Shown here in pieces: positions 1-32,329 of a DNA stretch of 32,329 bases. The stretch lies in the IMG/VR virus record IMGVR_UViG_3300010413_000112, positions 1 to 32,329 of that record; one strand, 5' to 3'. Each line of letters opens with the position of its first letter. Position 1 is the first letter of the stretch. Source of the stretch: a virus. The notes beneath the pieces were generated by a model, which was given only the letters and a program-made list of their open reading frames with translations, had not been told where the DNA came from and made no database searches. The translations under genes were made by a program, and so were the position numbers.

Positions 1-27
1 ATTAAAAAGCAAAGGAGAGTGGGTTTA

Positions 28-234: not shown

Positions 235-247
235 AAAGTTACATCTG

Positions 248-273
248 AGAGGGGATGAGTTGTCCCCTCTTTT
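248..273 (+). terminator. Intrinsic terminator after the first gene
   Basis: Perfect 8-bp stem AGAGGGGA/TCCCCTCT with loop TGAGTTG, followed by TTT. It closes the upstream unit and overlaps a promoter-like sequence (next entry). Confidence 0.75.
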
Positions 274-283
274 GGTGTATAAT
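255..283 (+). promoter_or_regulatory. Promoter overlapping the terminator, upstream of terS
   Basis: ATGAGT (255-260) lies partly in the terminator loop. A 17-nt spacer follows, then TATAAT at 278-283. The same arrangement recurs at 6759-6788 and 14022-14051, with TTGAGT and an 18-nt spacer. Transcription would start about 34 nt before the small terminase ATG. The -35 match is weak, so the call rests on recurrence of the whole module. Confidence 0.55.
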
Positions 284-316
284 ATATTAAAATTGTAAGA
301 TAGGGGGTATATTTTT

Positions 317-799: not shown

Positions 800-856
800 C
801 CCTGCAAAAAATGAGTTTTACCCCATAGAATGGAGAAACTCAAAAAATGCAGGGTA
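799..856 (+). repeat. 58-bp palindromic repeat element, copy A
   Basis: Arms CCCTGCA-A5-TGAGTTT (800-818) and AAACTCA-A5-TGCAGGG (836-854) form an imperfect inverted repeat. The 7-bp and 6-bp pairing blocks are separated by an unpaired A-tract on each side, with a 17-nt centre. A second copy lies at 13951-14008 in the opposite orientation, about 50 of 58 positions identical. The element fills part of the terS-terL gap (800-974). The rest of that gap is AT-rich and has a TATAAT at 892-897 without a good -35. Function unknown. Confidence 0.85.
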
Positions 857-974
857 AAATGTATAAAGAAAAAAGAGTATAAATAACCCTGTATAATAGA
901 AAAAAAGTTTAACCTGGAATAACTCAATATATACAAGGTTTACCTATACTTGGTTTTAGGAGGTTTTTTACAGT

Positions 975-18521: not shown

Positions 18522-19157
18522 TTGGCAGTAATCACAATATTGGGAGAGAGTGGCTCAGGGAAGTCCACTTCAATGAGAAATTTAAACCATGAGGAAACAA
18601 TGATAATTCAATGCACACCTAAAATGTTACCATTTAAGGGAGCAAGAAAAAAGTACAACAAGGAAAATAAAAACTTTAAAGTAGTTGATAACTATCAAAG
18701 CATCTATAAAAGTTTAAACTATCTTCAAAATCATGAGGAGGGTATGAAAAAGAAAATACTCATCTTAGATGATGCTCAGTATTTAATGGCTCATGAATAC
18801 ATGACATCCACTATTACAGGTTTTGACAAGTTCAATGTACTTGCAAACAACTTTTACACACTCATGATGGAATTGAAGAACATGAGGGATGACTTAAACA
18901 TATATGTAATGAGTCACACAGATGTTGATGAGCATGGAACAACAAGACAGAAGTCAATCGGAAAACTACTAAATGACAAGATATGTCTTGAAGGTCTTGT
19001 TAGCATAGTCTTAAAGACTGAGATTAGAGATGGGAAATATTATTTCACAACTCAGACTAATGGAAGGGACACAGTGAAGTCTCCTCAAGGGATGTTTGAG
19101 TCAATGTTAATAGACAATGACCTTACAATCGTGGATGAGGCAATAAGAGAATATTAA
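18522..19157 (+). CDS. Sak4-like RecA-fold ATPase (single-strand annealing / recombination)
   Basis: 211 aa from a TTG start, chosen because AAAGGAGGT lies 5-6 nt upstream and the next codons open a P-loop protein directly. Walker A GESGSGKST is at residues 8-16, Walker B KILILDDAQ at 78-86, and a sensor-like VMSHTDVD at 129-136. The end, YFTTQTNGRDTVKSPQGMFE, is typical of phage AAA_24/Sak4-type proteins, small RecA-like ATPases that help annealing and recombination. The next gene encodes an SSB-like protein, the usual partner. Its expression may be controlled by the structured leader. Confidence 0.75.
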   Translation: MAVITILGESGSGKSTSMRNLNHEETMIIQCTPKMLPFKGARKKYNKENKNFKVVDNYQSIYKSLNYLQNHEEGMKKKILILDDAQYLMAHEYMTSTITGFDKFNVLANNFYTLMMELKNMRDDLNIYVMSHTDVDEHGTTRQKSIGKLLNDKICLEGLVSIVLKTEIRDGKYYFTTQTNGRDTVKSPQGMFESMLIDNDLTIVDEAIREY

Positions 19158-19220
19158 TCAGGGCAGTTTGGATTGGTTATCACATTTTGGATGAGGTATA
19201 ACCTCAAGGGAGAATATATT

Positions 19221-19826
19221 ATGTTCGGAACTATAAAATCAAACGCAGTATCAGTTAAAGATGAGACAGTGGTGTCGTATATTGAAAAATCATATCTTGG
19301 AGAAGCTAAAATCATATCTTGTTCATACCTTGAGGCAAAGACAGGAGCAAAGGGACTGGATATTCAGTTTGAGACACCAAACAACGAAAGGTTTACAATG
19401 TCATCATACTTTGTTAGCAAGTCAGGAGAACCGATTGACTTTCAACTTTCAAGAATTATAAAGATTATGACTATGGCAGGGAAACAACTTGAGAACTTAA
19501 AATGGACAAAAGGAAAGAACAGATTTAATAAAGATGGAATGATATGTGAGGAACTTGTTGGTGTCTCAATGACACTATATGCTCAACATAAGTGGGAAGT
19601 GTACAACAATAAAGCTAGAGTAAAACATGACATCCTTGATGTGTTTTACACAGACTCAAAATTAACAATTGCAGAACACAATGCAGGTGAGACACATCCT
19701 GAGAGATACTTATCAAGGAAATCTCATTGTATCACAAGAAATGATACAGAGACCAAGCCAATGGTTGGACAGGATGCTCCAAAGAAAAATTTTACAGTGC
19801 AAAACGACACTGAGGAGGCGTTTTAA
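19221..19826 (+). CDS. SSB-like single-stranded DNA-binding protein
   Basis: 201 aa. The central part is strand-rich (GEAKIISCSYLEAKTGAKGL, ERFTMSSYFVSKSGEP, then ELVGVSMTLYAQHKWEVYNN), compatible with an OB fold. The C-terminal 30 residues are polar and end in DTEEAF, an acidic tip with terminal Phe like that of bacterial SSBs, which recruits partner proteins. Position next to a Sak4-like ATPase supports the call. ATG 19221 has GGGAG about 10 nt upstream; an earlier in-frame start at 19173 has no such site. It overlaps the lipoprotein gene by 1 nt. Confidence 0.55.
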   Translation: MFGTIKSNAVSVKDETVVSYIEKSYLGEAKIISCSYLEAKTGAKGLDIQFETPNNERFTMSSYFVSKSGEPIDFQLSRIIKIMTMAGKQLENLKWTKGKNRFNKDGMICEELVGVSMTLYAQHKWEVYNNKARVKHDILDVFYTDSKLTIAEHNAGETHPERYLSRKSHCITRNDTETKPMVGQDAPKKNFTVQNDTEEAF

Positions 19827-20101
19827 TGAGAAGGGTGTTTGTGGGAGGACTTATAATCCTCTCCCTCTCCTTTGGAGGATGCTTGAGTTGGAAAAGAGCA
19901 TTTAATGATTTCAAGTCAAACACAGTTGGTATTAAAAGAAAGGTCACTGTGTATGACCACTCAGGAAACAAATTGAGAGAATATTCGGGTAGAATTGTCA
20001 TTGATGGGTCAGGTGAAAGAACAAAGATAACAACATCAGATATGAGAGTCATCATTGTTGATGGTGGAATTGTAATCACAGAGGATATGAGGGGAGAATA
20101 A
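19826..20101 (+). CDS. Small phage lipoprotein, DUF5052-like
   Basis: 91 aa with lipoprotein signal: RR, a hydrophobic core, and Cys19 in LSFGGC. The mature part, NDFKSNTVGIKRKVTVYDHS then REYSGRIVID and MRVIIVDGGIVITED, follows the pattern of small phage lipoproteins (DUF5052-like: 'D-x-S-x-x-x-GL-x-R-x-V-x-VY...' then 'G-R-x-I'). It would sit on a membrane facing the periplasm or cell surface. Such proteins often block superinfection. AGGAGG is in the previous gene. It lies between SSB-like and beta-barrel genes and is probably co-transcribed with them. Confidence 0.6.
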   Translation: MRRVFVGGLIILSLSFGGCLSWKRAFNDFKSNTVGIKRKVTVYDHSGNKLREYSGRIVIDGSGERTKITTSDMRVIIVDGGIVITEDMRGE

Positions 20102-20102
20102 C

Positions 20103-20705
20103 ATGAAAAAGTTTGTATATACTGCAACAATCGTTTGTTCAATACTTTTAAGTTACACAGTATCAGATGCAAAAGAGACTCAGGTGAATGTGAGAATTGA
20201 TGGAACAATCAATGACCACTCATCCACAAACAATGGATGGGGGATGTCTGTTGACTTCCTACAACCATCCTCAATTGAAGGACTTTATCTTGGACTTGAG
20301 GGAGGTTTCACAACAATGAAGATGGACAACTCAATTGGAGATGACCTTGAGTTTGTCTCATTGTATACTGGGTTGGTTGGAAAATACTACTTTAATGATG
20401 AGTTGTATATCAGAATGGCATCAGGGTTCATTACAGGAGATGACTCAGACTCTTGGAAAGGTTCAATCAATGTTGGTGGAAGACCAACAAGTATCACAAA
20501 ACTCAATGATACAGAGTCAAAAGGTGTATACTTTGGACTTGAGACAGGTTTTGAGTTCAACAATGGAGTTGTGACCTTTGCAGGTTGGAGGAACATCCCT
20601 CAAGAGATGGTTGAGAGAACCATGACCAAGACTGAGATAATAAATAAAGACAAGAACAGTGACAGGATAAACCAGTATTACTGTGGAGTTGGATATAAGT
20701 TCTAA
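20103..20705 (+). CDS. Outer-membrane beta-barrel-like protein
   Basis: 200 aa. Signal peptide with core YTATIVCSILLSYTVSDA, cleavage probably after Ala23. The mature part alternates amphipathic strands and ends in the aromatic YYCGVGYKF, whose final Phe is the classic outer-membrane-insertion signal. About eight strands fit a small OmpA/Lom-type barrel (GLYLGLEGGFTTMKMDN, FVSLYTGLVGKYYFND, GVYFGLETGFEFNNG). Phage-coded barrels such as lambda Lom alter the infected cell surface. It implies a diderm host. GGGGAG precedes the ATG, and a strong hairpin closes the unit. Confidence 0.7.
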   Translation: MKKFVYTATIVCSILLSYTVSDAKETQVNVRIDGTINDHSSTNNGWGMSVDFLQPSSIEGLYLGLEGGFTTMKMDNSIGDDLEFVSLYTGLVGKYYFNDELYIRMASGFITGDDSDSWKGSINVGGRPTSITKLNDTESKGVYFGLETGFEFNNGVVTFAGWRNIPQEMVERTMTKTEIINKDKNSDRINQYYCGVGYKF

Positions 20706-20707
20706 AG

Positions 20708-20740
20708 CCTGATGGGGATATTCCCCATCAGGTACTTTTA
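20708..20740 (+). terminator. Strong hairpin after the barrel gene
   Basis: Perfect 11-bp stem CCTGATGGGGA/TCCCCATCAGG with a 3-nt loop, followed by TACTTTTAT. The U-tract is modest, so termination may be partial. The next gene's AGGAGG begins right after it. Confidence 0.7.
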
Positions 20741-20757
20741 TAGGAGGTGTGTTGTTC

Positions 20758-20979
20758 ATGGATAGGTTGTATAATTGGTTAAGGAGAAAAGGAACACTTG
20801 TGTTTAAAGAAGAAGATTGGAGAGATTTTCAGGTTACTTATAAGATAAAATACTCAGACCTCGTTACAGTACATGATATTGGAAAATACAAAGTTGAGGA
20901 TGTTGAGAAAAACAATCGTTTTGGTGTATGGGTTGGAGAATATGGACAGAGGCATTTATATGCAAAGGAGGAGTTTTAA
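20758..20979 (+). CDS. Hypothetical 73-aa protein
   Basis: Begins MDRLYNWLRRKGTLVFKEED and is strand-rich and charged. A region VTVHDIGKYKVEDVEKNNRF resembles short SH3-like or beta-barrel modules that recur in neighbouring early proteins. The ATG at 20758 has AGGAGG 10 nt upstream; the GTG at 20749 would leave only 1 nt. It abuts the next gene with no gap, and AAAGGAGG within its last codons serves that gene. Function unknown. Confidence 0.6.
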   Translation: MDRLYNWLRRKGTLVFKEEDWRDFQVTYKIKYSDLVTVHDIGKYKVEDVEKNNRFGVWVGEYGQRHLYAKEEF

Positions 20980-21567
20980 ATGTTTTTTAGTAGAGAGAAG
21001 ACAATAGAGGATATTGAGAGAAGTAATGCAGAGTATCAATACATGGAACTGCTAAAAGAGAATAAGAGAGAGTTACTTGCACGAAACAGGTTTGTTGACA
21101 CAGTTGTCCAATATTTCAATGAGTGGGTTGACCTACTTGGGACAGATAGTGAGGTTGGGGAACTCTTGACAGGACATTCCACCTCAGACATGATGTTTGT
21201 TAGGTTTATAGTGAAAAGGGGAGCATATAAGCATTATCACATACCTAATCTTGAGTGCACAAAGGCAGATACAAGCATCTCATTGGAGGAGTTAACTGAC
21301 ATACCTTTTGTCCATGAGACCTTTGTACCCGAACTCAACAAAGCAACATCCTTTGGATGCTTAAACCTTAGAGAAAAGGATGTCCAAGACTTCTATATGG
21401 GATTAGTTGCGGAGTGTATGCTCCAACTTGAAAAGATATGCAACAATGAAAGTATTTTAACAAGTTTATACCTTGATGTGTACTTTGAAAAGTTAGATCA
21501 AGAAGATTATGAAAAAAAATCCGAAGAACTAAGGCACTATATATCGTTAAAAAATAAAAAATATTAA
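20980..21567 (+). CDS. Hypothetical 195-aa protein
   Basis: Helical, charged and soluble. The N-terminal 40 residues look like a coiled coil (EKTIEDIERSNAEYQYMELL). A middle part with YKHYHIPNLEC and DTSISLEELTDIPFVHETF is followed by a helix-rich end. No signal peptide or recognised active site. AAAGGAGG precedes the ATG. It is the last gene before early-type promoter 2. I do not recognise a family. Confidence 0.6.
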   Translation: MFFSREKTIEDIERSNAEYQYMELLKENKRELLARNRFVDTVVQYFNEWVDLLGTDSEVGELLTGHSTSDMMFVRFIVKRGAYKHYHIPNLECTKADTSISLEELTDIPFVHETFVPELNKATSFGCLNLREKDVQDFYMGLVAECMLQLEKICNNESILTSLYLDVYFEKLDQEDYEKKSEELRHYISLKNKKY

Positions 21568-21585
21568 AATATATTAAAAAAGTTG

Positions 21586-21614
21586 TTGCAATAAAATATT
21601 TAATATGTTAATAT
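21586..21614 (+). promoter_or_regulatory. Early-type promoter 2
   Basis: TTGCAA (21586-21591), 17-nt spacer, TG-T-TAATAT ending at 21614, with ATATTAAAAAAGTTGT upstream. The start point would be about 45 nt before the ATG at 21668. The leader contains a short hairpin GAGG/CCTC. Confidence 0.75.
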
Positions 21615-21667
21615 ATAAGCAAGTTGAGGGACAACCTCACAAAACGAAAATTGAGGAGATGATTTAA

Positions 21668-22726
21668 ATGGCAAAAGGGATTACTTTTAGAACAAAGGCA
21701 ATGGTAGAAAAGACAAGCAAAGGATGGACAGTGAATGCAATTGCAACTGAGTCAAAGAAAGTTGACTGGAACACAGTTGAGGATACAATGGTTGCAAAGG
21801 GATGGAACATTTCAGGAGTAATTGAAGAGAATGAGAAGGGAATGACATATGGATGGTTCAATGTACTGGATGTATGTTGCACAAAGGCAGAGGCTATGGA
21901 AGTATACAGAGACTTGATGGATACTATCATCACAATGGAAGACCTTGAGAAGGAGAAAGTTGAGTCTGACTCAACTCCTTCTGAGGGTACAGTTGAATGG
22001 ATAAGATTAAACAAAGTTCAAGGTTGTGACACCGAAACTTGCAAGGGATGTCCTAACATGGAGAACTGTATCACAAGAGAGGGAACAGATGCAACGGACT
22101 ATCTTACAATTGAAGCAAAGGGAAGAATTGACATCAAGAAATTTGGAGACCTTAAACTTAAAGAAGGTGACAGAGTGAGATATACCCTTGAGTATGATGA
22201 GGAGAACTTTGGGATGGAAGGAACAGTGACCAATGCCTTTAGAAGTGAGATGACCTTTTATCCTTACTTTATTACATGGGACAACGGAAAAAATGACTGT
22301 GTATCTTGGTCAGGTAGAGGATACTACAACGAGTCAAAACCAAGAATTGATAAGATTGAGGAGGATGGGTCAGATGACCCTACTCCTGAGGAGAACTTCA
22401 GACCTATGAAAGAGATGACCAAAGATGAGATTGTGGCAGAGTACAATGACATCACAGGAGCAGATGTGACAAGCTTCCATTACTCAAGAGTTACATTTGA
22501 GAGTTTGTTGAAGGTTGCAAGAGTAGACACGAACACATCCCACAAAGAAAAGATTGGACACTATGAGTTCACATTCATTGAGGGAGACTTCTTTGGGAGT
22601 GACTATACAATCAAGGTCATAGAGATGTTTGATACGGTAGCAGTAGCGTGGTACACAAGGGAGCTATACTATAAGGACAGAGACCATATGGTCAAAGACC
22701 TTTCAGATAGATATAATCATATATAA
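21668..22726 (+). CDS. 352-aa early protein with Cys cluster and SH3-like module
   Basis: Not recognised as a whole. Residues 1-100 form a helical-beta region (KMVEKTSKGW...). A short Cys cluster follows at about 120-134 (GCDTETCKGCPNMENC; C-x4-C-x2-C-x5-C), which could bind zinc or an Fe-S centre. Then an SH3/KOW-like barrel LKLKEGDRVRYTLEYDEENF with TWDNGKNDCVSW (about 160-215), and a C-terminal part with YEFTFIEGDFFGSDYTIKV. It is the first gene after early promoter 2, so expression should be early and strong. Possibly a regulator or nucleic-acid-binding protein; that is inference. Confidence 0.6.
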   Translation: MAKGITFRTKAMVEKTSKGWTVNAIATESKKVDWNTVEDTMVAKGWNISGVIEENEKGMTYGWFNVLDVCCTKAEAMEVYRDLMDTIITMEDLEKEKVESDSTPSEGTVEWIRLNKVQGCDTETCKGCPNMENCITREGTDATDYLTIEAKGRIDIKKFGDLKLKEGDRVRYTLEYDEENFGMEGTVTNAFRSEMTFYPYFITWDNGKNDCVSWSGRGYYNESKPRIDKIEEDGSDDPTPEENFRPMKEMTKDEIVAEYNDITGADVTSFHYSRVTFESLLKVARVDTNTSHKEKIGHYEFTFIEGDFFGSDYTIKVIEMFDTVAVAWYTRELYYKDRDHMVKDLSDRYNHI

Positions 22727-22740
22727 GGAGATGGTGTATA

Positions 22741-22980
22741 ATGCCAACTATGAAGGAATTGAAGTCTGAGGCACAGGCAATGAAAGTCAAGGGGTACTCA
22801 AGAATGAGTAAAGAGCAACTTGAGGAGGCAGTTAACAACAAATACGCATCTATGATGGGAATGCCTACATCAGATAAGAAGAAGAAAACTCCAAAGACCA
22901 CACTCACAAGGTCTCAACTTGAGAAAAAAATGAAGGCTCAAGGAGTCAAGAAGGTATCACAGATAAGAGGGACAGTTTAG
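22741..22980 (+). CDS. Small basic Rho-N/SAP-like protein, 79 aa
   Basis: Starts with MPTMKELKSEAQAMKVKGYS then MSKEQLEEAVNN, the Leu-spaced helix-turn-helix pattern of the Rho N-terminal/SAP-like DNA- or RNA-binding motif ('ELKxxAxxxxxxGxSxxxKxELIxAL'). A lysine-rich linker follows (DKKKKTPKTTLT), with a second half LTRSQLEKKMKAQGVKK. Probably a small nucleic-acid-binding protein. Preceded by AAGGAG. Its stop codon is within the first of two tandem hairpins. Confidence 0.6.
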   Translation: MPTMKELKSEAQAMKVKGYSRMSKEQLEEAVNNKYASMMGMPTSDKKKKTPKTTLTRSQLEKKMKAQGVKKVSQIRGTV

Positions 22981-22998
22981 TCCCTCACCCGAAAGGGT
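22967..22998 (+). promoter_or_regulatory. Tandem hairpins at the end of the SAP-like gene
   Basis: GAGGGAC/GTCCCTC (7 bp, loop AGTTTA; spans the stop) followed immediately by ACCC-GAAA-GGGT, a stem with a GNRA tetraloop. There is no U-tract, so they are more likely mRNA-stability, processing or protein-binding elements than terminators. The next gene's GAGGAGGAGG begins after them. Confidence 0.55.
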
Positions 22999-23019
22999 AG
23001 AATTGAGGAGGAGGTTTGA

Positions 23020-23178
23020 ATGACAATACAGGAAATTAACAAAAAGATTGATGGAAGATTATGTCCTGCAACAGTAGGTTTACACTCTTATGTGTCATAC
23101 TGTAAAAATGGTGAGTGTGGTCAATGTTGGAAAAGAGCAATTGAAGGAGGAAAGACTAATGACAAAACAAAGAACTAA
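23020..23178 (+). CDS. Small Cys-rich protein, 52 aa
   Basis: Short product MTIQEINKKIDGRLCPATVG with C-x(12)-C-x(4)-C-x(2)-C (CKNGECGQC), a likely zinc-binding arrangement. GAGGAGG lies 5-6 nt before the ATG. It overlaps the next gene by 20 nt, and its codons supply the GGAGG for that gene. Probably a zinc-finger-like accessory protein. Confidence 0.6.
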   Translation: MTIQEINKKIDGRLCPATVGLHSYVSYCKNGECGQCWKRAIEGGKTNDKTKN

Positions 23179-23443
23179 AAGAAAATTTGTTGAGTGGAAA
23201 GTTGAACCAACCTACATGCAGAGAGTGATGGACACAGGATGCAAACCAGTTGAGATTGAATGGGATAAGGTACTCAACACAGAGTACCATAATCTTAAAC
23301 TAGACCTGATAAAAGTTAGAGACAATATAGTCAAGCAAACTTGGAACAAGTCATTGACTGAAAAGGAGAAAGACATCCTTTCAAAGATAAAGAGACTTGA
23401 AGAAAATAAATTAGTTAAAGGAGATGACACTAATGGGATTTAA
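23159..23443 (+). CDS. Hypothetical 94-aa basic protein
   Basis: Charged and helical: TKQRTKRKFVEWKVEP, then a helix-rich half ending EKDILSKIKRLEENKLV. The ATG at 23159 has GAAGGAGG about 6 nt upstream; an earlier in-frame ATG at 23090 lies inside the preceding gene without such a site. The start and context suggest DNA or RNA association, but no motif is certain. It overlaps the next small gene by 11 nt in a densely overlapping run leading to the replication protein. Confidence 0.55.
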   Translation: MTKQRTKRKFVEWKVEPTYMQRVMDTGCKPVEIEWDKVLNTEYHNLKLDLIKVRDNIVKQTWNKSLTEKEKDILSKIKRLEENKLVKGDDTNGI

Positions 23444-23558
23444 ATATTGTGAGGAGTGCGGTGATATTATAATTGATGGATACTCAACACTCTGTGGGTG
23501 GTGTTTGCTTAAGAAGGAGGAGCAGGAGAGGGAGGTATGGGAAGATGAGGAGTTATAA
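23433..23558 (+). CDS. 41-aa zinc-ribbon-like protein
   Basis: Tiny protein with two C-x2-C knuckles: YCEECGD near the start and LCGWC after about 14 residues, then a Glu/Lys tail (KKEEQEREVWEDEEL). The layout is that of a minimal zinc ribbon. AAAGGAG lies about 8 nt upstream. Its end overlaps the replication polyprotein start by 14 nt, and its codons carry the GGGAGG used by it, so the two are probably coupled. Confidence 0.6.
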   Translation: MGFKYCEECGDIIIDGYSTLCGWCLLKKEEQEREVWEDEEL

Positions 23559-26500
23559 GGTCTATCTTGCAGATACAGAGTCATTGGTTGACTTTTGGGG
23601 AATACGTTTCATTGAGCAGGATGGGGATGAGATAATCTCCTTTGATACAATTGGAGAGGATACTCTAATCAACAAAACCCCAATCCTTGACTTTATGAAG
23701 AACAATGTAATTGTATTCCACAATGCAGGATATGACTCTTTCATGTTATACAGACTCATGGCTTTTTCAGGAGCAACTCCAACTGTTATGAGAGATTTTA
23801 ACAAAGAGTATTTCCAAGACTCAAGAAATTTTATTGAGCAGATGAGAGAGTATGGAAAATACTCCAAAAGGTTCTCTGAGGAGTTCGGTTGTAAAATATA
23901 TGACTCCCTGAAACCTCTTGGAAAGTCTTTAAAGGTCATGGAGTATGTCACAGACCAAGAGGTCATGGTTGAGACCTTTGATGAGAACAGAAGATATGAT
24001 GAGGAGTTCTCAAAATACTTCAATCATGACGTAAAGGCTTTGCAGAAAATATGGAACACTCATTGGAAGTTAAGACCAACCATCAACGATAGAAAAAACG
24101 CACTTGAATATCTTGGGGTTATAGGAAAATTTGATGAGTACCATGAATACTCTTCACCCTTGTCATTCCTTGCTCCTCTGTTTTCAAAAGACATCAAGGG
24201 TGAGTCAAGACAATATTCAAGGATTGACTTTCGTGAAATCCCTGCATTGAAGGATGAGACATTAAATGAACAATTCAAGTCCCATATAGAAAAATACACA
24301 CTAGATACAAAGTTAGCGGACAGAGATGACTCTAAAAAGACAGAGGTTCTAATTTTCGATAACAACACAGTATTTTCAGGTGGAGGTATACATGGAGTCC
24401 ATAAGTCTCAACAGTTCTTTAAATCAGATGACTCTTACACAATAATGCACTATGATGTTGGGTCTCTCTATCCTAACATATTGAGAGTTGACCAACATCT
24501 TGCAAGACACATGGACATTGAATTATACACATCTCTTATTGAGAATAGATTGAAATACAAAGCAGATGGAGATAAGCAGAGGGCAAACGCACTTAAACTG
24601 GTTCTCAACTCGGCATATGGTATTATCAACATGGAGGTTGACATCTATGATAAGAACTCAGACTACAACCCTATGGGGTATAAACCTTTAGGGCAATGGG
24701 TTTGTCTCAGGGGTCATCAACTACTCCTGAGTATGATAGAATTATTCAAAGAGTATCTCACAGACATTACAGTCATTCAAATGAACACAGATGGTGTTTA
24801 TTTTCTAATCAGAAATGATGAGGTTGAAAAGTCAAGGGAAGTTGCAAAGATGTGGGAAAAGGAACATGATATGACACTGGATGGTCACTCCTATGCGTAC
24901 ATGTACCAAAAGGATGTCAACAATTATATTGCAGTTGAGTTCAATGGTGACATTGAGTCTAAGGGTAAACTTGGAATTGATGACAAGGAAGGTGTCACAG
25001 ATGTCACAATCCCTCTTACAGTGAGAGAGTGCATCATGAGACAGTTCGGGATGGTTCAAAGAACTCAAGAGCCTAAAATATATCCAATCTTGGACAAGTC
25101 ATCAGGTTCTCTGTGGTATCTAACCAATAAAGAGACAGGGATATATCACTGTACTGGTAAACCATCAAGCATCAATCCAATGACAGTTGAACAGATGGAG
25201 GCAAGTGGGAAGACCTTTGGTAAAATTGCAGGTATGTCAAAGTTACATCTCACAACTAACATTGATGATGCAGACCTTTCAGTATATGAGTGGTTGTCAG
25301 ACCTCCACATCAGGAACAGGACAGAGACCGCAATTGCAGATTTGAAACTAAAAGACCCAATCATGTCAATCATTGACCCATCTGCAACGGAACTCAAAAC
25401 AAAGATTGGTCAAAGATATAAGGACAACGCAACCGCAACAAGTAAATCTGAGATTGAGGTCAACATGACTGACAAATATTGGAAACCTGTTGGAGGAACA
25501 AGAAGAAAAGATGAGTGGAAGGGTAGATTTTGGGAACACTTTGAGGAGTGTCTTGAAAAAGGTTATCACTTCATGCTTGGTTCTGTGAAAGGTGGAAAGA
25601 GAGCAATTGAACATGGTCAAGGACAAAACGTTGGATACTTTGACTTGGATGAGGGATTTTTACCATCAATACATGAGGCAAGACAACTCATTGAAGAGAA
25701 GACTGGTATCAAATTATTTGCATCCTATTACACTCTATCTGCAACAGATGAGAAGAGAAAACAGAGACACTTCTTTCTATTGGACAAAACATTCTTACCA
25801 CATGAGAGAAAAACATATAGAGCCTTCATGAACCATCTCTCAGACCTACTTCAGGAAAAATGTGGACTCACCAATGATCGTGCCACATGCTCCCTGAATT
25901 ATGTTGCATTTACAAGGCATCCTGACATGGAGTACTTTATAGCAGACTCAAAAGAGGTTGACTGGTTTTCAGTCAATCTCTCTTCTCTTGAAGTTGATGA
26001 GGATGCAACCTTCAAAGCGACATGGAAGAGCACTCTTTTAGAGGGTGAGGTATTTTCAAAGGATTTTATACATTATCTTGACTATCTGAGAGACGGAAAC
26101 ACAGGGATACATTTCTCACATTTAAGGAGAATAATCTATGGAACTATACCTTATTTGCAAGACGTCCACCCAACACTTCCATCAGAAATAATTAACATAA
26201 TAACTGAGTTTGCACAAAAGCATTATTATGGAACAATGCCAAATAGTTACATTGACAGGTTCAAGGCACTAATCAAACAAGGTGAGTATAATGAGACTAA
26301 TTTACAGAGATATAACCATTATAAATCAATATATCTTGTTAGAGGAGCAGACACTCTCTATAAGAAGGTTAAAAATAGAGTTGAGAGTTCACCTTTTAAA
26401 GTAGAGTCAGGTGTGATTAATATTGCAGGAGTTGGAGCAGGTAAAACCACTTTTCTTGTTGATGTAACCGCACTTCATACGTTGGAACAAATAAAAACAG

Positions 26501-28296
26501 TTATATGGACAGACAATGTGGATAATGTTAGAGATATTAAACACAGACTTATTGACAGATACTCTGAGGATATTGCAAATAATGTTCTATTTGTTACACC
26601 ATCAACCCCTGTGGAGGAAATAAGAGAGCACAAAGGTGTTATAGTGACTCACCATCAATATCTGACTCACAAGGGAATATCTTCTGAAAGATACCCAAAG
26701 ACATATGCACTTATGAGTACAGATGTAAAGTATCATCTTCTTGATGAGTTGCAAAACCTTGTCCATGTAAGACACAAAGACATTGTGATTGAGAGACCAA
26801 TGTTTAAAAGTTCCCTTAGAGGTTCAAGAGTAAAGTGGATACCAATCACAACCCATATTCCAACTGTGAAGGAGGGCACTAAACTTGAAATAAAATTATC
26901 AGGCAATCTTGTTTGGAGAGAGACAGAGACTTTTAATGCAATAGAGTATTATAATCTCGAAGAGATGCAGGACATTGGTACAGATGCAGGATGTAAGAAA
27001 TATTTTGAAATACTTGAGGAGGTTGGTAGTAGATACACACCAAAACAAGGAAGTGACTACGGATACATAGAGAGACTCTATAAAGTCAGGATGACAAAAC
27101 CATCCATTGATGACTGGTCAGTGTATGAACACATGTACAGGTTATGCTCAGATTGTGGAGAGATATTTTTGCATGAGAAGATACCAACTCATCTTGGAGT
27201 TGAGATTGATGTGTCAAGTACATGTCATTATGAAGGACTAAGCAAAACAGGTTTTCATGGGTTGTGGTCAACATCCCTCAGAATAAGAGATGAGAGTGTC
27301 ATTGTGGATGACTTAAGAGGAGCTTACACAGGCTTTTCTGCATCCATGTCAGAGGATGAGACTATCTTTAATGGGATGACTTTCAACCACATCTCTGAGT
27401 CCTTCTCTAAGACAGACAAGGTATACATCCAAAACCTCAATAACTTCCCAACCTATGACAAGATACTTGAGTCGGGTTTAAACACTTTAATTGTGTATGA
27501 CCTGAAAAATCAAGCATCCGCAAGGTACAGGGAACTTATAAAAGACAGTAGGTTCACAAACAAGGTAACGTTGCTTCAGGATAAAGGAGATGCCACTCAT
27601 TATGCAAATGGAGATGAGTCAGAGGCACACTCCTATCCCATAAAGATAACATACAGAGAAAATAGCAGACTGAGAGGAAAAGACCTCCCACAGATAGAGT
27701 GTATGGTCATAGATATGCACAACAAAAGAAATTTGCTATTTGATACCACAGGAGACCCTATTGAACATAAACTAAATCAGTCCATAGGTAGACCTCTCAG
27801 AGGTCATCAGATGCTAAAGTCCTTTGTATTCTTCAACAACGACAAAGACACAGGACATAATGCAAAGACAGGTGAAGAGTATCTCAAAACGATAGTTGGA
27901 AAGGATGAGGTATTTTTCATAGATAGATGGTTTGATAGAGAGACCTTTGAAGAGGTGAAGAACACTCCTGTTATAGAGTGCATAAGGTTTATATCATCTC
28001 CTGAGTCACACCCAATGAAGAACACCAAGAGAGAAAAGTCATCAAAGAAGGAGTCAAAGACCAAGTACAAATATACTCCAACAATAAGAGAATATATTGG
28101 AAAGGAACATCAAAGAGGTGTCAGGGAATGGAGAGAACTCTTTGGAATGAAATATCAGGAAGAGCCTGTGTTCTCAAGAACCTTCTCTCAATCTGCATTG
28201 AATAAACTTGGAGCAGATGGTATTCACATCCATGTTGGGACTCTTGAAGGAAAAAAACAATTATATTATTTCAAATATATCAATGAGGAAAACTAG
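23545..28296 (+). CDS. Replication polyprotein: exonuclease - family B DNA polymerase - primase - SF2 helicase
   Basis: 1583 aa. Exonuclease (1-175): DTE (D10, E12), HNAGYD (59-64), Y158-x3-D162. Family B polymerase (about 290-470): motif A DVGSLYP (304-310), motif B K351-x3-NSAYG (355-359), motif C NTDG (414-417), where the first Asp is Asn but the essential D416 stays. Archaeo-eukaryotic-type primase (about 640-810): GYFDLDEG with D700 and D702, QRHFFLLD with H742, and a SLNYVAFTRHP segment. SF2 helicase (about 950-1430): Walker A GVGAGKTT (962-969), LLDELQ (D1067, E1068), RGKDLP (1377-1382), QSIGRPLRG (1412-1420). A basic linker and DNA-binding-like tail follow. The ATG at 23545 has GGGAGG about 10 nt upstream; a start at 23473 lacks one. 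No frameshift or stop separates the domains. Confidence 0.88.
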   Translation: MRSYKVYLADTESLVDFWGIRFIEQDGDEIISFDTIGEDTLINKTPILDFMKNNVIVFHNAGYDSFMLYRLMAFSGATPTVMRDFNKEYFQDSRNFIEQMREYGKYSKRFSEEFGCKIYDSLKPLGKSLKVMEYVTDQEVMVETFDENRRYDEEFSKYFNHDVKALQKIWNTHWKLRPTINDRKNALEYLGVIGKFDEYHEYSSPLSFLAPLFSKDIKGESRQYSRIDFREIPALKDETLNEQFKSHIEKYTLDTKLADRDDSKKTEVLIFDNNTVFSGGGIHGVHKSQQFFKSDDSYTIMHYDVGSLYPNILRVDQHLARHMDIELYTSLIENRLKYKADGDKQRANALKLVLNSAYGIINMEVDIYDKNSDYNPMGYKPLGQWVCLRGHQLLLSMIELFKEYLTDITVIQMNTDGVYFLIRNDEVEKSREVAKMWEKEHDMTLDGHSYAYMYQKDVNNYIAVEFNGDIESKGKLGIDDKEGVTDVTIPLTVRECIMRQFGMVQRTQEPKIYPILDKSSGSLWYLTNKETGIYHCTGKPSSINPMTVEQMEASGKTFGKIAGMSKLHLTTNIDDADLSVYEWLSDLHIRNRTETAIADLKLKDPIMSIIDPSATELKTKIGQRYKDNATATSKSEIEVNMTDKYWKPVGGTRRKDEWKGRFWEHFEECLEKGYHFMLGSVKGGKRAIEHGQGQNVGYFDLDEGFLPSIHEARQLIEEKTGIKLFASYYTLSATDEKRKQRHFFLLDKTFLPHERKTYRAFMNHLSDLLQEKCGLTNDRATCSLNYVAFTRHPDMEYFIADSKEVDWFSVNLSSLEVDEDATFKATWKSTLLEGEVFSKDFIHYLDYLRDGNTGIHFSHLRRIIYGTIPYLQDVHPTLPSEIINIITEFAQKHYYGTMPNSYIDRFKALIKQGEYNETNLQRYNHYKSIYLVRGADTLYKKVKNRVESSPFKVESGVINIAGVGAGKTTFLVDVTALHTLEQIKTVIWTDNVDNVRDIKHRLIDRYSEDIANNVLFVTPSTPVEEIREHKGVIVTHHQYLTHKGISSERYPKTYALMSTDVKYHLLDELQNLVHVRHKDIVIERPMFKSSLRGSRVKWIPITTHIPTVKEGTKLEIKLSGNLVWRETETFNAIEYYNLEEMQDIGTDAGCKKYFEILEEVGSRYTPKQGSDYGYIERLYKVRMTKPSIDDWSVYEHMYRLCSDCGEIFLHEKIPTHLGVEIDVSSTCHYEGLSKTGFHGLWSTSLRIRDESVIVDDLRGAYTGFSASMSEDETIFNGMTFNHISESFSKTDKVYIQNLNNFPTYDKILESGLNTLIVYDLKNQASARYRELIKDSRFTNKVTLLQDKGDATHYANGDESEAHSYPIKITYRENSRLRGKDLPQIECMVIDMHNKRNLLFDTTGDPIEHKLNQSIGRPLRGHQMLKSFVFFNNDKDTGHNAKTGEEYLKTIVGKDEVFFIDRWFDRETFEEVKNTPVIECIRFISSPESHPMKNTKREKSSKKESKTKYKYTPTIREYIGKEHQRGVREWRELFGMKYQEEPVFSRTFSQSALNKLGADGIHIHVGTLEGKKQLYYFKYINEEN

Positions 28297-28303
28297 ACTA
28301 TAT

Positions 28304-28323
28304 GGTGAGATTTATGTCTCACC
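28304..28323 (+). other. Hairpin after the replication polyprotein gene
   Basis: Perfect 7-bp stem GGTGAGA/TCTCACC with loop TTTATG, followed by an A-rich run rather than T. As there is no U-tract it is not a standard terminator; it may mark the end of the message or block exonucleases. Confidence 0.5.
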
Positions 28324-28355
28324 TATAAAAAATAAAAAATATATTAAAAAAGTTG

Positions 28356-28384
28356 TAGACATAATTTAATTAATATGTTAATAT
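28356..28384 (+). promoter_or_regulatory. Early-type promoter 3
   Basis: TAGACA (28356-28361), 17-nt spacer, TG-T-TAATAT ending at 28384, with ATATTAAAAAAGTTGT upstream as in promoter 2. It would start about 20 nt before the ATG at 28411. Confidence 0.7.
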
Positions 28385-28410
28385 AATTATCAAGAAGGGA
28401 GGAGATACAG

Positions 28411-28656
28411 ATGGAAAAGAAAACAACACATCCATTGAAGATTGTGAAGATAGACAGAGCAGGAAGACCGATTGAAGTTTACAGTAGTATATATAAAGCA
28501 GGTCATGAGCATGGTTCACCTGCAAATATAACTCATTGTCTTAGAGGTAGAACAAAGGTTGCATATGGTTTTCACTGGATGACATTGGATGATTTTAGAA
28601 AACACAAAGATGCAGATGGAAATATTGATGTAATGGAAGTATTTTATAAAAAGTAA
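28411..28656 (+). CDS. Stand-alone NUMOD1-like domain protein
   Basis: 81 aa, nearly all one NUMOD1-like module: IVKIDRAGRPIEVYSSIYKA, then ITHCLRGRTKVAYGFHW. NUMOD1 domains are normally the DNA-binding part of homing endonucleases such as GIY-YIG and HNH types ('hyxhdxxGxhhxxasxxxA...'). Here no nuclease domain is attached, so the product could be a degenerate endonuclease, a DNA-binding regulator, or the remnant of one. It is first after early promoter 3, and AGGAGG precedes the ATG. Confidence 0.6.
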   Translation: MEKKTTHPLKIVKIDRAGRPIEVYSSIYKAGHEHGSPANITHCLRGRTKVAYGFHWMTLDDFRKHKDADGNIDVMEVFYKK

Positions 28657-28669
28657 ACAGGAGGAAAAG

Positions 28670-29194
28670 ATGGACAATATCAAACCGATAAGACAATATG
28701 TGTTTGAGAGAGGAATGAGAGTAAAAAGAATGGGTATTGACAACAAACAAATATTTGGAAACATTGAGTCAGTAGATAAGGATAAAATATATTCAATAAC
28801 AGTTAAGTGGGACTCAGGAGAGACCTATGGGATAACATCTCGATATACAATAGATGGATATTGGATGACTGGGACTAAATCCGAAATAAGAAGGATACAT
28901 CCAATTGATGAGCCCTATCCATGGGAAACAACTTTAAGTTTACATGAGTTGACAGAGCAAGATGGTATCACTCACTCTGACAGTAAGATACAAGGTGGAC
29001 ACTACAAAGACTCAATAGAGTGCATCAAAGTTCTTGAACTACTTGAGAGTACGGGAGCAGGGTTTCATGAGATACAGGCAGTGCGATACATATGGAGAGC
29101 AGGAAGGAAGACAGGAGAGTCAAAAGAAAAGGATTTAAAAAAGGCTTTGAATTATTTACACAGAAAACTTGAAGGAAAGTGGTTCTATGAGTAA
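28670..29194 (+). CDS. DUF3310 protein with N-terminal SH3-like module
   Basis: 174 aa. The C-terminal part (about 109-168) matches DUF3310: GGHYKDSIECIKVLELL, then AVRYIWRAGRKTG and DLKKALNYLHRKLEG. In other phages DUF3310 proteins lie in nucleotide-metabolism or host-takeover gene groups; their chemistry is not known. The first 75 residues resemble a beta-barrel module (FERGMRVKRMGIDNKQIFGN, YWMTGTKSEI) that is not usual in the family. AGGAGG lies just before the ATG. It overlaps the next gene by 8 nt. Confidence 0.8.
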   Translation: MDNIKPIRQYVFERGMRVKRMGIDNKQIFGNIESVDKDKIYSITVKWDSGETYGITSRYTIDGYWMTGTKSEIRRIHPIDEPYPWETTLSLHELTEQDGITHSDSKIQGGHYKDSIECIKVLELLESTGAGFHEIQAVRYIWRAGRKTGESKEKDLKKALNYLHRKLEGKWFYE

Positions 29195-29786
29195 GAAAAG
29201 GATAAGAAGATACAGAAAAAATGTGTTTGCAAGATACACTTTGGATGGGACTTTTATTGAAATGTTCCCATCTGTGTCTGACTTGAAAAAGGCAGGATAC
29301 AGTGAAACAACCACAAGACTGGTTTGCACTGGACATACAAAGAAATATAAAAATTGTCTTTGGAGATATGTTGTTGATGGTGTTATCCCTAACATAAAAG
29401 AGAATACAGAAAAAAGAGCACTGTATATTCAATTTGCAAAGTTGATCATTCAGGGTGAATTGACTCTGACTGAGGCATCCATATTTAATCCTACACTCGA
29501 TAAGAGTACACTTGGAAATTATGTTCAAAGGTTAAGAGTCACACACAAAGCGGAGTTTTTGGGAAAGAAGTTGTATGAAAAGAAAGACAAGGATAAAGTC
29601 AACATATTGAAAATACATCCAAAAGTCCTTATCGAATACTCACACGCACTTGAAGTCCTTGAGATGCATGGTTATATATACATAAAAAAGGAGTATGATT
29701 TGAACGGTTCATATGATACCATTGTTACTTTTATTAAAAAGAAATTTAACAAGATTTGTTGGGATGGAGACATCTATGAAGAATAA
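29187..29786 (+). CDS. NUMOD1-like DNA-binding protein with HTH-like middle
   Basis: 199 aa. A basic N-terminus (MSKKRIRRYRKN) is followed by one NUMOD1-like unit (VFARYTLDGTFIEMFPSVSD and the closing KNCLWRYV). The rest looks helical, with a possible helix-turn-helix around GELTLTEASIFNPTLDKSTL. No catalytic motif of GIY-YIG, HNH or LAGLIDADG type is seen. ATG 29187 overlaps the previous stop and has GGA 8-9 nt upstream; the TTG at 29169 has no better site. Probably a transcription or DNA-binding factor, or the leftover of a homing protein. Confidence 0.55.
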   Translation: MSKKRIRRYRKNVFARYTLDGTFIEMFPSVSDLKKAGYSETTTRLVCTGHTKKYKNCLWRYVVDGVIPNIKENTEKRALYIQFAKLIIQGELTLTEASIFNPTLDKSTLGNYVQRLRVTHKAEFLGKKLYEKKDKDKVNILKIHPKVLIEYSHALEVLEMHGYIYIKKEYDLNGSYDTIVTFIKKKFNKICWDGDIYEE

Positions 29787-29806
29787 AAACAGGAGGTATG
29801 AGATAC

Positions 29807-30676
29807 ATGGGAAAAGTTAACAGAATTGATTACACATCATACGAAGGACAGGTGAGAAAGTCGAACAAGTACGGAGAGTATGAAATCCAATCTTACTCAG
29901 GAATGGAGTCCAAGACAAAGACTCACTTTTTCACAATAAGATTTATTGACACAGGGAATGTTGAGGAGGCAGTGTCTTGGAAGAAGATAAAATCAGGAGC
30001 AATCACTGACTCAAGACTTGTTGACCTACAAAAGAAAATCAAGAAATCTGAGGCAGTGAGACAGAGGAACATGGTTGCTAAAGGACAAATGAAAGAGAAG
30101 AAGGTGAAAAGGTATCCAATAGCAAGGGACAAGATGGTTGTTCTTGCTTTAGACCTGAGTACAAACTCGACAGGTTATGCACTTTTCAAGGATACAACCA
30201 TTGTTGACTTTGGTTCAATTACTTATGGCGAAAACAAACAACTATCATTGAAGGATAAAAACACCCTGAAAGAGATACCATCAACAACACTATTTGGAAT
30301 TGGTGAAAAAGATATGTGGTTGGATAATAGATTAAAAAACATGTATCAATTCATTATAAAATTAATCAACCAACATCATCCTCAATTGGTAGTAATAGAA
30401 GATTGTTATTTAATGAATGTAAATGTTTTAAAAACATTGATGTTGCTTCAGGGATACATAAGAGGAGTTTGTCTCAACAAAGACATCCCTTGTGAGCTCC
30501 TTATGCCATCTTCATGGCAAAACTATTTCAACATGGAACACAAGAGGGAGAAAATAAAAGAGAGGTCAAAGGAAATTGCAAAGGCAACTGTAAAGCAGGA
30601 AGTTTGGGAAGATACGGCAGATGCCTTGTGTCTTGGTATGTATGCAGTGGCAACATTAGATAGTGGGGTGAAATAG
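29807..30676 (+). CDS. RuvC-like Holliday junction resolvase with N-terminal extension
   Basis: 289 aa. The RNase H-like nuclease core (about 108-289) holds ALDLST with D116, VVIEDCY with E198, and WEDTADALCLG with D269 and D272, the four acidic residues of RuvC-type resolvases. In phages they cleave branched DNA before packaging. The first 100 residues are extra: VNRIDYTSYEGQV, then SNKYGEYEI and IRFIDTG, a small DNA-binding module found in other phage proteins beside HNH nucleases, followed by a basic coiled helix. ATG 29807 has AGGAGG 10 nt upstream; the ATG at 29798 overlaps that site. Confidence 0.75.
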   Translation: MGKVNRIDYTSYEGQVRKSNKYGEYEIQSYSGMESKTKTHFFTIRFIDTGNVEEAVSWKKIKSGAITDSRLVDLQKKIKKSEAVRQRNMVAKGQMKEKKVKRYPIARDKMVVLALDLSTNSTGYALFKDTTIVDFGSITYGENKQLSLKDKNTLKEIPSTTLFGIGEKDMWLDNRLKNMYQFIIKLINQHHPQLVVIEDCYLMNVNVLKTLMLLQGYIRGVCLNKDIPCELLMPSSWQNYFNMEHKREKIKERSKEIAKATVKQEVWEDTADALCLGMYAVATLDSGVK

Positions 30677-30733
30677 ATGGCAGATTTATCAGATTATTTT
30701 ATAGAGGAGGTAAAGAAAGATGAGACGTTTTGA
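30677..30733 (+). CDS. 18-aa mini-ORF upstream of the MazG-like gene
   Basis: MADLSDYFIEEVKKDETF. It overlaps the next start by 14 nt, and its codons carry the AGGAGG used by the MazG-like gene. Preceded by a GGGG-containing site. It may be a leader peptide coupling translation, or spurious. Confidence 0.3.
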   Translation: MADLSDYFIEEVKKDETF

Positions 30734-31154
30734 TGATATTAAACCATCATATAACATGAGAGGAAGACTTCACAAGATATACAAGACAAAGGGATGGGAG
30801 AGTCAAATATCCAAGTTAAAAGAGGAATTTCTTGAGATGTGCCTTGAGATACAGAGAGTTGGAGGAGAGGACAATACAAAGGGGAACTATGATGCAATGA
30901 TCGAAGAGGTTGGAGACTTCCTTGTGGTCAGAAATCAATTTGCATCAGAGTTGATGAGTGACCTTGAGGTGCAGATACTGGACAAGACCCTTGAGAGTAT
31001 GGAGAGCCTGATGGTAGACCTTGACCTGATAAACTTTTATGGACTCATTATGAAGAACCCTCATGCAAGACAAGAGATTGAGGCATCCATGACAAGGAAA
31101 GTGTGGAGAACACTGGACAGGATAGAATGCACAGAAAATGAGGGGTGGTTATAA
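30720..31154 (+). CDS. MazG-like nucleotide pyrophosphohydrolase
   Basis: 144 aa. The helical metal-binding pattern of the MazG/dUTPase superfamily is present: LKEEFLEMCLEI with E36-x2-E39, then MIEEVGDFLVV with E63-x2-D66, the usual ExxE...ExxD spacing of about 24. Such enzymes cut NTPs, dNTPs or (p)ppGpp into monophosphates and pyrophosphate; in phages they adjust the host nucleotide pool or the stringent response. The rest is helical. AGGAGG lies about 8-9 nt before the ATG. The stop overlaps the next gene (TAATG). Confidence 0.8.
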   Translation: MRRFDDIKPSYNMRGRLHKIYKTKGWESQISKLKEEFLEMCLEIQRVGGEDNTKGNYDAMIEEVGDFLVVRNQFASELMSDLEVQILDKTLESMESLMVDLDLINFYGLIMKNPHARQEIEASMTRKVWRTLDRIECTENEGWL

Positions 31155-31261
31155 TGGAACTGCAAACAAGTTGCTCATGGTTACAGGTTGGAGACCTTAC
31201 CCTTGAGAGATACATCAAAGAGAAAGAGGAGGAATGTTTAAATGAGTTGTATGAGGTTTAA
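31154..31261 (+). CDS. Small 35-aa protein
   Basis: MELQTSCSWLQVGDLTLERY and a Glu-rich helix. It starts on the MazG-like stop (TAATG) with a GGGG about 10 nt upstream, and its last codons overlap the next gene. It may be real, as it sits in a tightly coupled run, but nothing points to a function. Confidence 0.4.
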   Translation: MELQTSCSWLQVGDLTLERYIKEKEEECLNELYEV

Positions 31262-31424
31262 TGAGAAAATTGTGTCATTCAGAATAACACCTGCAAAGGA
31301 TGGAGAGATTTGTATCCAATATATGTATGATGGAGAGATTGTCCATGAGGTTATAAGGTTTGTTTGGGACTCTTGGTCTATATTTAACGAGTTGAGGAGG
31401 TTGAGAAAGATATATGAGAAGTGA
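31242..31424 (+). CDS. Hypothetical 60-aa protein
   Basis: MSCMRFNEKIVSFRITPAKD and then strands IQYMYDGEIVHEVIRF, with a helix at the end (NELRRLRKIYEK). AGGAGGA lies 8-9 nt before the ATG. It overlaps the previous mini-gene by 20 nt. A small strand-helix fold is likely; function unknown. Confidence 0.55.
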   Translation: MSCMRFNEKIVSFRITPAKDGEICIQYMYDGEIVHEVIRFVWDSWSIFNELRRLRKIYEK

Positions 31425-31474
31425 TAAAAGAGATAATAAAGGAATTATCAAAACCAATTAAGGAGGGAAATAGT

Positions 31475-32107
31475 ATGTTTAAAGTAGGAGATAAGGTTGA
31501 GAAGTTTGGAACGACATCAGTTGCAGGAGATAAGGGTATTGTTATACACATTAGCACAAAACCAAAAGAAAAGTATCCTGTGATTGTTGAGTTTGATTGT
31601 ACGATAGAGTCGTTCACCACTGATGGAAGATATTGGACTCATGATGCAATCACTTTGAGAAAGTCTGACATACATGTGTGGATGCCAAAAGTTGGAGAAT
31701 ATTATTGGAACTTAGAGGCAGAGGACTGGACACAGGTTACAGAGATGGACAAAGCAGATGAGGACTGTGGTGGATGTATGACAGACAACTTTGGGTGGTG
31801 TTGGTTCACAAGATGGCAACCTGAGTCAGGGCATCACATATTCACACCAAAGAAGTCAAAGAGGGTTGAAAAAACAATCGTTACTGTTCAGGAAATTGGA
31901 GGGACTTATGAGGAAGAGTGTACAACGGTCTTAGATGAGTTCATAGTGCTCAAGGACTTCCCATCCAAAGGATTGAAAATTGGAGACATTGTTGTGACTT
32001 ATCTCAATGCTCCTGAAAAGGTATATAAAAAAGGAGAGTTTAATGATGTGGTGTGGTTGGCAAATTCTTTTGATGGAAAAAACTATATGTCACAAATATA
32101 TAGATAG
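31475..32107 (+). CDS. Hypothetical 210-aa protein with SH3/KOW-like barrels
   Basis: N-terminal module FKVGDKVEKFGTTSVAGDKG (about 2-30) has the V-G-D-x-V opening of KOW/SH3-like barrels, followed by VIVEFDCTIESFTTDGRYW. A middle part contains a small Cys cluster, DEDCGGCMTDNFGWCWF. A second barrel-like stretch KGLKIGDIVVTYLNAPEKVY lies near the C-terminus. ATG 31475 has AAGGAGGG about 9 nt upstream; a GTG at 31421 overlapping the previous gene is possible but lacks a site. Function unknown. Confidence 0.6.
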   Translation: MFKVGDKVEKFGTTSVAGDKGIVIHISTKPKEKYPVIVEFDCTIESFTTDGRYWTHDAITLRKSDIHVWMPKVGEYYWNLEAEDWTQVTEMDKADEDCGGCMTDNFGWCWFTRWQPESGHHIFTPKKSKRVEKTIVTVQEIGGTYEEECTTVLDEFIVLKDFPSKGLKIGDIVVTYLNAPEKVYKKGEFNDVVWLANSFDGKNYMSQIYR

Positions 32108-32250
32108 TGTTCTGAGAGCCTGAGAGTGGTCAAAATGACCGCTCAAGTACCTCACTGGTATATCTTATCATGTTGAATGGTTGGAAGTGTTAAAAAGGGT
32201 CTGAGAGGGTCACATTTTATATGGAGATATTTTAAAGGAGTTGAGACATC
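32108..32250 (+). other. Intergenic region with hairpin and repeated CTGAGAG
   Basis: 143 nt without a gene. CTGAGAG occurs three times (near 32111, 32119 and 32200). A stem GAG..TGGTCA/TGACCG..CTC with loop AAA forms in the first half. No good promoter was seen. It may be a leader for the gene at 32251. Confidence 0.4.
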
Positions 32251-32329
32251 TTGATAATAAGTAAATTATGTAAAACCAATGAGGAAGTGGATAGGTTTAT
32301 TGAACAGATGGATGGACAGTACATCCTGA
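32251..32329 (+). CDS. Start of a gene running out of the window
   Basis: TTG start with AAAGGAG about 10 nt upstream. The first 26 residues read (M)IISKLCKTNEEVDRFIEQMD and on to the window edge. Too short to identify. Confidence 0.45.
   Translation, partial: MIISKLCKTNEEVDRFIEQMDGQYIL

Follow-up and report, generated by a model that had tools for sequence, protein, structure and literature searches.

A 1583-residue phage protein predicted to join a family-B DNA polymerase, a primase and an SF2-type helicase in one chain

We analyzed a stretch of viral DNA of 32,329 nucleotides (IMG/VR record IMGVR_UViG_3300010413_000112, positions 1 to 32,329), which is referred to at its full length as the window. 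A single gene of 1583 codons lies on its plus strand. Judged from its sequence, the gene probably encodes a near self-sufficient single-chain replicase of a small tailed phage, in which a family-B DNA polymerase (PolB) is followed by an archaeo-eukaryotic primase (AEP) and a superfamily 2 (SF2) helicase. The frame is intact, with an ATG at 23545, a stop codon at 28294-28296 and no interruption over 4.75 kb. Because a GGAGG sequence is located at 23531-23535, we assigned the start to this ATG rather than to the in-frame TTG at 23473.

23545..28296, plus strand: fused replicase gene, 1583 amino acids (open reading frame; identical frame in an independent assembly, 7 of 7 substitutions synonymous)
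23531..23535, plus strand: likely ribosome-binding site GGAGG, 9 nt 5' of the ATG (read from the sequence)

A second metagenomic IMG/VR contig (IMGVR_UViG_3300009506_000194) carries the same frame and shares 99.9% DNA identity with window positions 18792-32329. The two differ by 14 substitutions over 13.5 kb. Half of these (7 of 14) fall in the replicase gene, at codons 375, 1121, 1138, 1139, 1145, 1150 and 1286, and all seven are synonymous. A first-pass annotation, made from the sequence alone, had given the 1583-codon frame at 23545-28296, and these coordinates were exact. It had also named an assembly join of separate genes as the outcome that would overturn its reading, and no fused relative was found in the collections searched. 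However, the same joined frame, unbroken over its whole length, recurs in the second assembly with only synonymous differences. An assembly join or chimera is therefore very unlikely, to the point of being barely credible, and the same holds for a chance frame. The assembly artefact was rejected on the recurrence of the frame and the scatter of these differences. Synonymous-only differences also indicate that selection acts on the coding sequence of the C-terminal half and that both halves are translated. Five of the seven lie within 90 bases (26907-26994) in the helicase insertion described below, possibly a small recombination tract. Directly behind the replicase gene, a small open reading frame (ORF; 28411-28656) shows weak NUMOD/HTH similarity, a homing-endonuclease-type DNA-binding module, without a nuclease domain.

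The N-terminal part of the product contains the following features.

23545..25359, plus strand: family-B DNA polymerase with 3'-5' exonuclease, residues 1-605 (phrog_1252 profile match, profile of 110 relatives, invariant residues)
23572..23580, plus strand: Exo I, D10-x-E12 (invariant in the alignment with three phage PolBs)
24454..24477, plus strand: PolB motif A, D304-VGSLYPN (D304, S307, P310 and N311 invariant)
24595..24621, plus strand: PolB motif B, K351-LVLNSAYG (K351, N355 and G359 invariant)
24778..24795, plus strand: PolB motif C, QMNTDG with the catalytic D416 (N414, T415 and D416 invariant)

Residues 4-476 matched phrog_1252 (phage DNA polymerase) in a PHROG profile search (E = 6.6e-55), and a profile built from 110 PolB relatives scored the chain at 219.9 bits. 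In an alignment with the PolBs of a Leuconostoc, an Enterococcus and a Vibrio phage, the exonuclease residues D10, E12, N60, D64 and D162 and the polymerase residues D304, K351, N355 and D416 were invariant. Motif C reads NTDG in place of DTD, as it does in the three aligned enzymes. On these sequence comparisons, we regard the exonuclease and PolB identity of residues 1-605 as certain. The distance from motif A to motif B (D304 to K351) is unusually short, at 47 residues. The TPR1 insertion of protein-primed PolBs sits between motifs A and B, which are about 134 residues apart in phi29. The spacing in the 1583-residue chain leaves no room for TPR1, and this phi29-type insertion is not present between the two motifs, which fits an RNA- or DNA-primed enzyme. 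The terminal branch that leads to this PolB is long, at 2.2 substitutions per site.

The middle of the chain contains a putative primase and a helical segment behind it.

25549..25944, plus strand: AEP-type primase core, residues 669-800 (alignment with 17 phage AEPs, profile, motif pattern)
25642..25650, plus strand: AEP motif I, D700-L-D702 (alignment)
25765..25770, plus strand: AEP motif II, R741-H742 in KQRHFFLL (alignment)
25876..25878, plus strand: AEP motif III, D778 in LTNDRAT, likely the third AEP acid, absent from the first-pass annotation (alignment)
26101..26316, plus strand: helical segment with weak PriX/PriCT similarity, C-terminal to the AEP core, residues 853-924 (Pfam PriX, E = 0.023 with the excised segment, below cut-off)

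The AEP comparison set was reached from a weak phrog_25531 match of the excised segment (E = 0.039), through AEP proteins in viral records, to phage AEPs fused to VirE/VapE-type ATPases. D700/D702, KQR741H742 and D778 stand in register with 17 of these AEPs. When 1015 sequences were scored with an AEP profile built without the 1583-residue chain, the chain came directly after the two true family members (10.4 bits, E = 0.015), and the best of 300 shuffles reached 3.3 bits. A motif pattern present in 15 of the 17 AEPs matched the chain at 699-781. Elsewhere, among 714 other ORFs, this pattern found only two genuine AEP proteins, and it was reached in 46 of 300,000 shuffles. Residues 669-800 are thus very probably an AEP, closest to those found in phage VirE/VapE-type proteins. 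On residues 606-940, nothing in Pfam, PHROG or NCBIfam scored above cut-off. As no curated AEP model passes, the claim to any curated AEP family is weaker, and the AEP reading itself is not lowered. PriX, which the segment at 853-924 resembles, is related to PriCT domains, usually fused behind AEPs (PMC5862659).

It is conceivable, if improbable, that only the PolB and a P-loop ATPase are functional, with the middle region decayed or differently used and with priming by the host primase or by recombination ends. The AEP score of 10.4 bits is low in absolute terms, motif II deviates from the classical SxH, and a Sak4-like protein and a single-strand DNA-binding protein (SSB) encoded by the same phage would allow recombination-primed replication. 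On the other hand, the three acidic positions are kept in register with the 17 phage AEPs, a PriX-like segment follows the core, and the frame is intact with synonymous differences only.

The C-terminal part contains a putative helicase and a basic tail.

26362..28014, plus strand: SF2-type helicase core, residues 940-1490, in which motifs II and III are separated by an insertion of about 170 residues (motif pattern I-II-V-VI; P-loop matches below family cut-offs)
26428..26448, plus strand: helicase motif I (Walker A), GVGAGK967T (sequence, pattern)
26737..26748, plus strand: helicase motif II (Walker B), LLDE 1065-1068 in LLDELQ (sequence, pattern)
27334..27351, plus strand: probable helicase motif III, FSASMS 1264-1269 (position, assigned by eye)
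27673..27690, plus strand: helicase motif V, RGKDLP 1377-1382 (sequence, pattern)
27778..27801, plus strand: helicase motif VI, QSIGRPLR 1412-1419 (sequence, pattern)
28027..28293, plus strand: basic linker and small C-terminal segment, residues 1495-1583 (composition from the sequence; no family match)

The SF2 motif pattern I-II-V-VI matched the chain at 964-1419 and 15 of 18 phage SF2 helicases, and it matched none of 293 other ORFs and none of 300,000 shuffles. An earlier pattern that included motif III missed known SF2 proteins and was discarded. Phage SF2 helicases encoded beside related PolBs have QSIGRIAR as motif VI, compared with QSIGRPLR in the 1583-residue chain. The P-loop region alone matched GajB (E = 4.5e-4) and XPB (E = 0.005), both below the family cut-offs. 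No SF3 helicase match was found in the chain with Pfam and PHROG. On its motifs, rather than on curated profiles or a usable model, the region of residues 940-1490 is likely an SF2 helicase, and residues 1495-1583 possibly bind DNA. The first-pass annotation had listed the exonuclease residues, PolB motifs A, B and C, an AEP-like primase with D700, D702 and H742, and SF2 motifs I, II, V and VI with K967. The residues named lie where it placed them, and the SF2 motifs are in order.

The C-terminal ATPase might instead be an origin-binding or initiator motor of the UL9-like SF2 type, in which case the chain would start replication at an origin and the host DnaB would unwind the fork. We consider this unlikely, although phages and plasmids have proteins in which an AEP is fused to a remote UL9-like SF2 domain (PMC5862659), and the basic C-terminal tail could bind DNA. 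The herpes origin-binding helicase model PF02399 gave no match to the helicase half, and in GP55 of Lactococcus phage 1706 the helicase joined to PolB is able to power strand displacement (PMC12205980).

Several results weigh against the reading of the gene as a replicase, beginning with this missing PF02399 match. The AEP and helicase motif patterns were composed with the sequence of the chain in view. No curated family model in Pfam, PHROG or NCBIfam reached its cut-off for residues 640-1583, so the profile search proposed in the first-pass annotation matched the PolB and left the primase and helicase parts without a curated profile above cut-off. On the helicase half, a phage ResIII helicase profile did not beat shuffles, hhalign and HMMER with such a profile gave nothing significant, and a test with a position-specific scoring matrix was marginal (31 of 3000 shuffles). 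The collections reached contained no homologue of the C-terminal part, so its motifs are read from this one protein. AlphaFold2 without an alignment gave poor models of both regions modelled, with a predicted local distance difference test (pLDDT) value of 39.8 for the second helicase domain and 38.8 for the AEP, and Foldseek on the AEP model returned nothing. About half of the ORFs of the phage have no assigned function. A sequence search of solved structures gave nothing credible.

We compared the chain with its relatives. In 908 phage records with a related PolB, the best matches listed covered at most 30% of the chain and none covered 80%. Viral contigs, genomes and phages yielded at least 120 complete PolB ORFs with a maximum length of 904 amino acids, and a search via the PolB motifs found no fused PolB among them. 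In phages with the same PolB family, helicase and primase have genes of their own, which vary in kind (ResIII-type SF2, DnaB with DnaG, VapE, D5). In 19 of 82 loci, the 2 kb upstream of PolB contain an SF2 helicase gene on the same strand. For the AEP-helicase half, no relative beyond the same phage was found in viral contigs, species genomes, phages and plasmids, and 25 PolB-bearing records gave only a stop-broken chance match. Relatives sought through the terminase were again the same phage only. The search of related phages for joined or split forms, suggested in the first-pass annotation, thus found, in the records covered, the PolB unfused beside separate helicases and primases and no fused form beyond the same phage. 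The suggestion that a PolB gene had fused to a primase-helicase gene agrees with the domain layout and with the AEP-PriCT-SF2 proteins already described (PMC5862659); we can only infer such an origin, because no unfused AEP-SF2 relative was found. Two gene arrangements were observed in passing. In several PolB-bearing phages, at most 6 bases separate the end of a ResIII-type SF2 helicase gene from the PolB start, which makes a recurrent SF2-PolB gene pair. Several phages have an annotated DNA polymerase gene either directly or one gene upstream of an AEP-VirE primase-helicase gene.

The second contig runs on past the end of the window with 327 bases that are absent from it (positions 13539-13865 of that contig) and then continues with window positions 1-1637. 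As it joins the end of the window to the start, the genome is about 32.66 kb long and its gene content is nearly complete. The 327-base stretch begins a small cysteine-rich ORF. The following genes were assigned elsewhere in the window.

18522..19157, plus strand: Sak4-like recombination protein (phrog_2872, E = 4.9e-75)
19224..19826, plus strand: SSB (phrog_743, E = 1.1e-10)
29798..30676, plus strand: RuvC-like Holliday-junction resolvase (phrog_159, E = 5.2e-22)

Further genes of the phage were assigned to terminase subunits, to a portal of the head-tail adaptor family, and to DUF3310 and MazG-like proteins. Among the ORFs scanned, we recognised neither a further DNA polymerase (PolA or a second PolB) nor another primase or replicative helicase (DnaG, DnaB). 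The nearest named relatives of the portal and terminase are in Fusobacterium phages, at 30-37% identity. Beside the SSB gene (19826-20705), two small ORFs encode a likely lipoprotein with the lipobox LSFGGC and a likely signal-peptide protein with an outer-membrane-like look, which hints at a Gram-negative host. In the virion region, 8214-9554 contains an Ig-like domain (phrog_215), and 10300-11385 appears Ig-like by eye. Rfam gave no match in the window, and the genes around Sak4 in other phages shed no light on the replicase.

By analogy with GP55, we propose the following mechanism for the 1583-residue chain, in which the biochemical activities, helicase polarity, primer hand-off and oligomeric state are what we infer from the analysis. 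The C-terminal SF2-type ATPase would move along single-stranded DNA and open the duplex before the polymerase reaches it. The common direction of SF2 enzymes is 3'-5', and such movement would place the helicase on the leading-strand template in front of the PolB. The AEP domain, aided by the PriX/PriCT-like segment, would lay a short primer on the exposed single strand. This primer could then be handed to the N-terminal PolB of the same chain or, in trans as in GP55, of a partner chain, and the PolB would extend it and proofread with its 3'-5' exonuclease. The SSB, Sak4-like protein and RuvC-like resolvase of the phage may deal with single strands and recombination.

Parts of this layout are found in several known systems. 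The phrog_1252 PolBs of Leuconostoc Limdunavirus, Enterococcus Efquatrovirus and Vibrio phages have the same exonuclease and polymerase motifs, the short A-B spacing and NTDG, but they are unfused proteins of 510-904 amino acids, and primase and helicase are encoded by separate genes. The AEP-VirE/VapE-type primase-helicases of tailed phages share the AEP core with its three motifs in register; their AEP is joined to an ATPase of the VapE type, and any polymerase annotated next to it has a gene of its own. All3500-family AEPs with C-terminal SF2/UL9-like domains (PMC5862659) show an AEP, a PriCT-like domain and a remote SF2 helicase in the same order. They have no polymerase on the chain, and the helicase of the 1583-residue chain is not detected by PF02399. 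PolB and a helicase are also joined on one viral chain in the PolB-SF1 helicase fusions of Tlr1 and transpovirons and in the SF1-pPolB fusions of OmPLV (PMC12721341), and Tlr1 likewise has its polymerase at the N-terminus and its helicase at the C-terminus. These fusions differ in belonging to eukaryotic viruses and in having a protein-primed PolB (the exonuclease is lost in Tlr1), no AEP primase and an SF1 helicase.

The closest comparison is with HelPrimPolB proteins, in which PolB carries an SF3 helicase and a PrimPol at its N-terminal end (PMC7544198). One of them, GP55 of Lactococcus phage 1706, was purified and showed helicase, primase, polymerase and exonuclease activities in one chain of 1317 amino acids (PMC12205980). 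It was shown to be active in 2025, synthesizes DNA de novo on M13, is dimeric and has more than 1000 homologues (PMC12205980). As in the chain studied here, exonuclease, PolB, AEP primase and helicase are placed in one phage protein, and the PolB half of GP55 matched phrog_1252 (E = 2.3e-45), the PolB family common to both. The same four predicted activities and the same polymerase family could mean that our gene encodes a plain HelPrimPolB protein of the GP55 family, with nothing structurally new. We find this very improbable. The order is reversed, as GP55 reads SF3 helicase-AEP-helical domain-PolB (1317 amino acids) and our chain reads PolB-AEP-PriX-like segment-SF2 (1583 amino acids), with SF2 motifs in place of the SF3 helicase. 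Whole GP55 matched phrog_4210 at 1798.6 bits, whereas the 1583-residue chain was not among the phrog_4210 matches at E <= 1. The AEP of GP55 scored about 0 bits with the AEP profile that our chain matches, and BLASTP between the two proteins found only a short shared PolB segment. The earlier suggestion that no common phage family has such a chain therefore fails for the four activities as such; within the reach of our searches, no earlier report describes a PolB-AEP-helicase order with an SF2 helicase. Given the shared PolB family and the different order, primase type and helicase type, a separate fusion event is the simplest explanation. We thus lean toward a second, independent origin of a single-chain phage replisome, in which an AEP and an SF2 helicase from other lineages were attached to the opposite end of the same PolB family, so that the order mirrors that of HelPrimPolB. 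A rearranged common ancestor with GP55 followed by domain replacement would be less simple. If the activities are real, two unrelated layouts of the four activities around one polymerase family would make all-in-one replicases recurrent rather than one accident, so that covalent polymerase-primase-helicase machines would arise repeatedly, and an SF2 enzyme could act as the fork helicase built into a tailed-phage replicase. In that case the protein could also serve in primer-free DNA amplification, as an enzyme whose helicase and primase are unlike those of GP55. With purified GP55 as the comparison, it becomes testable which features matter: the order of the domains, the type of helicase, or priming in cis or in trans.

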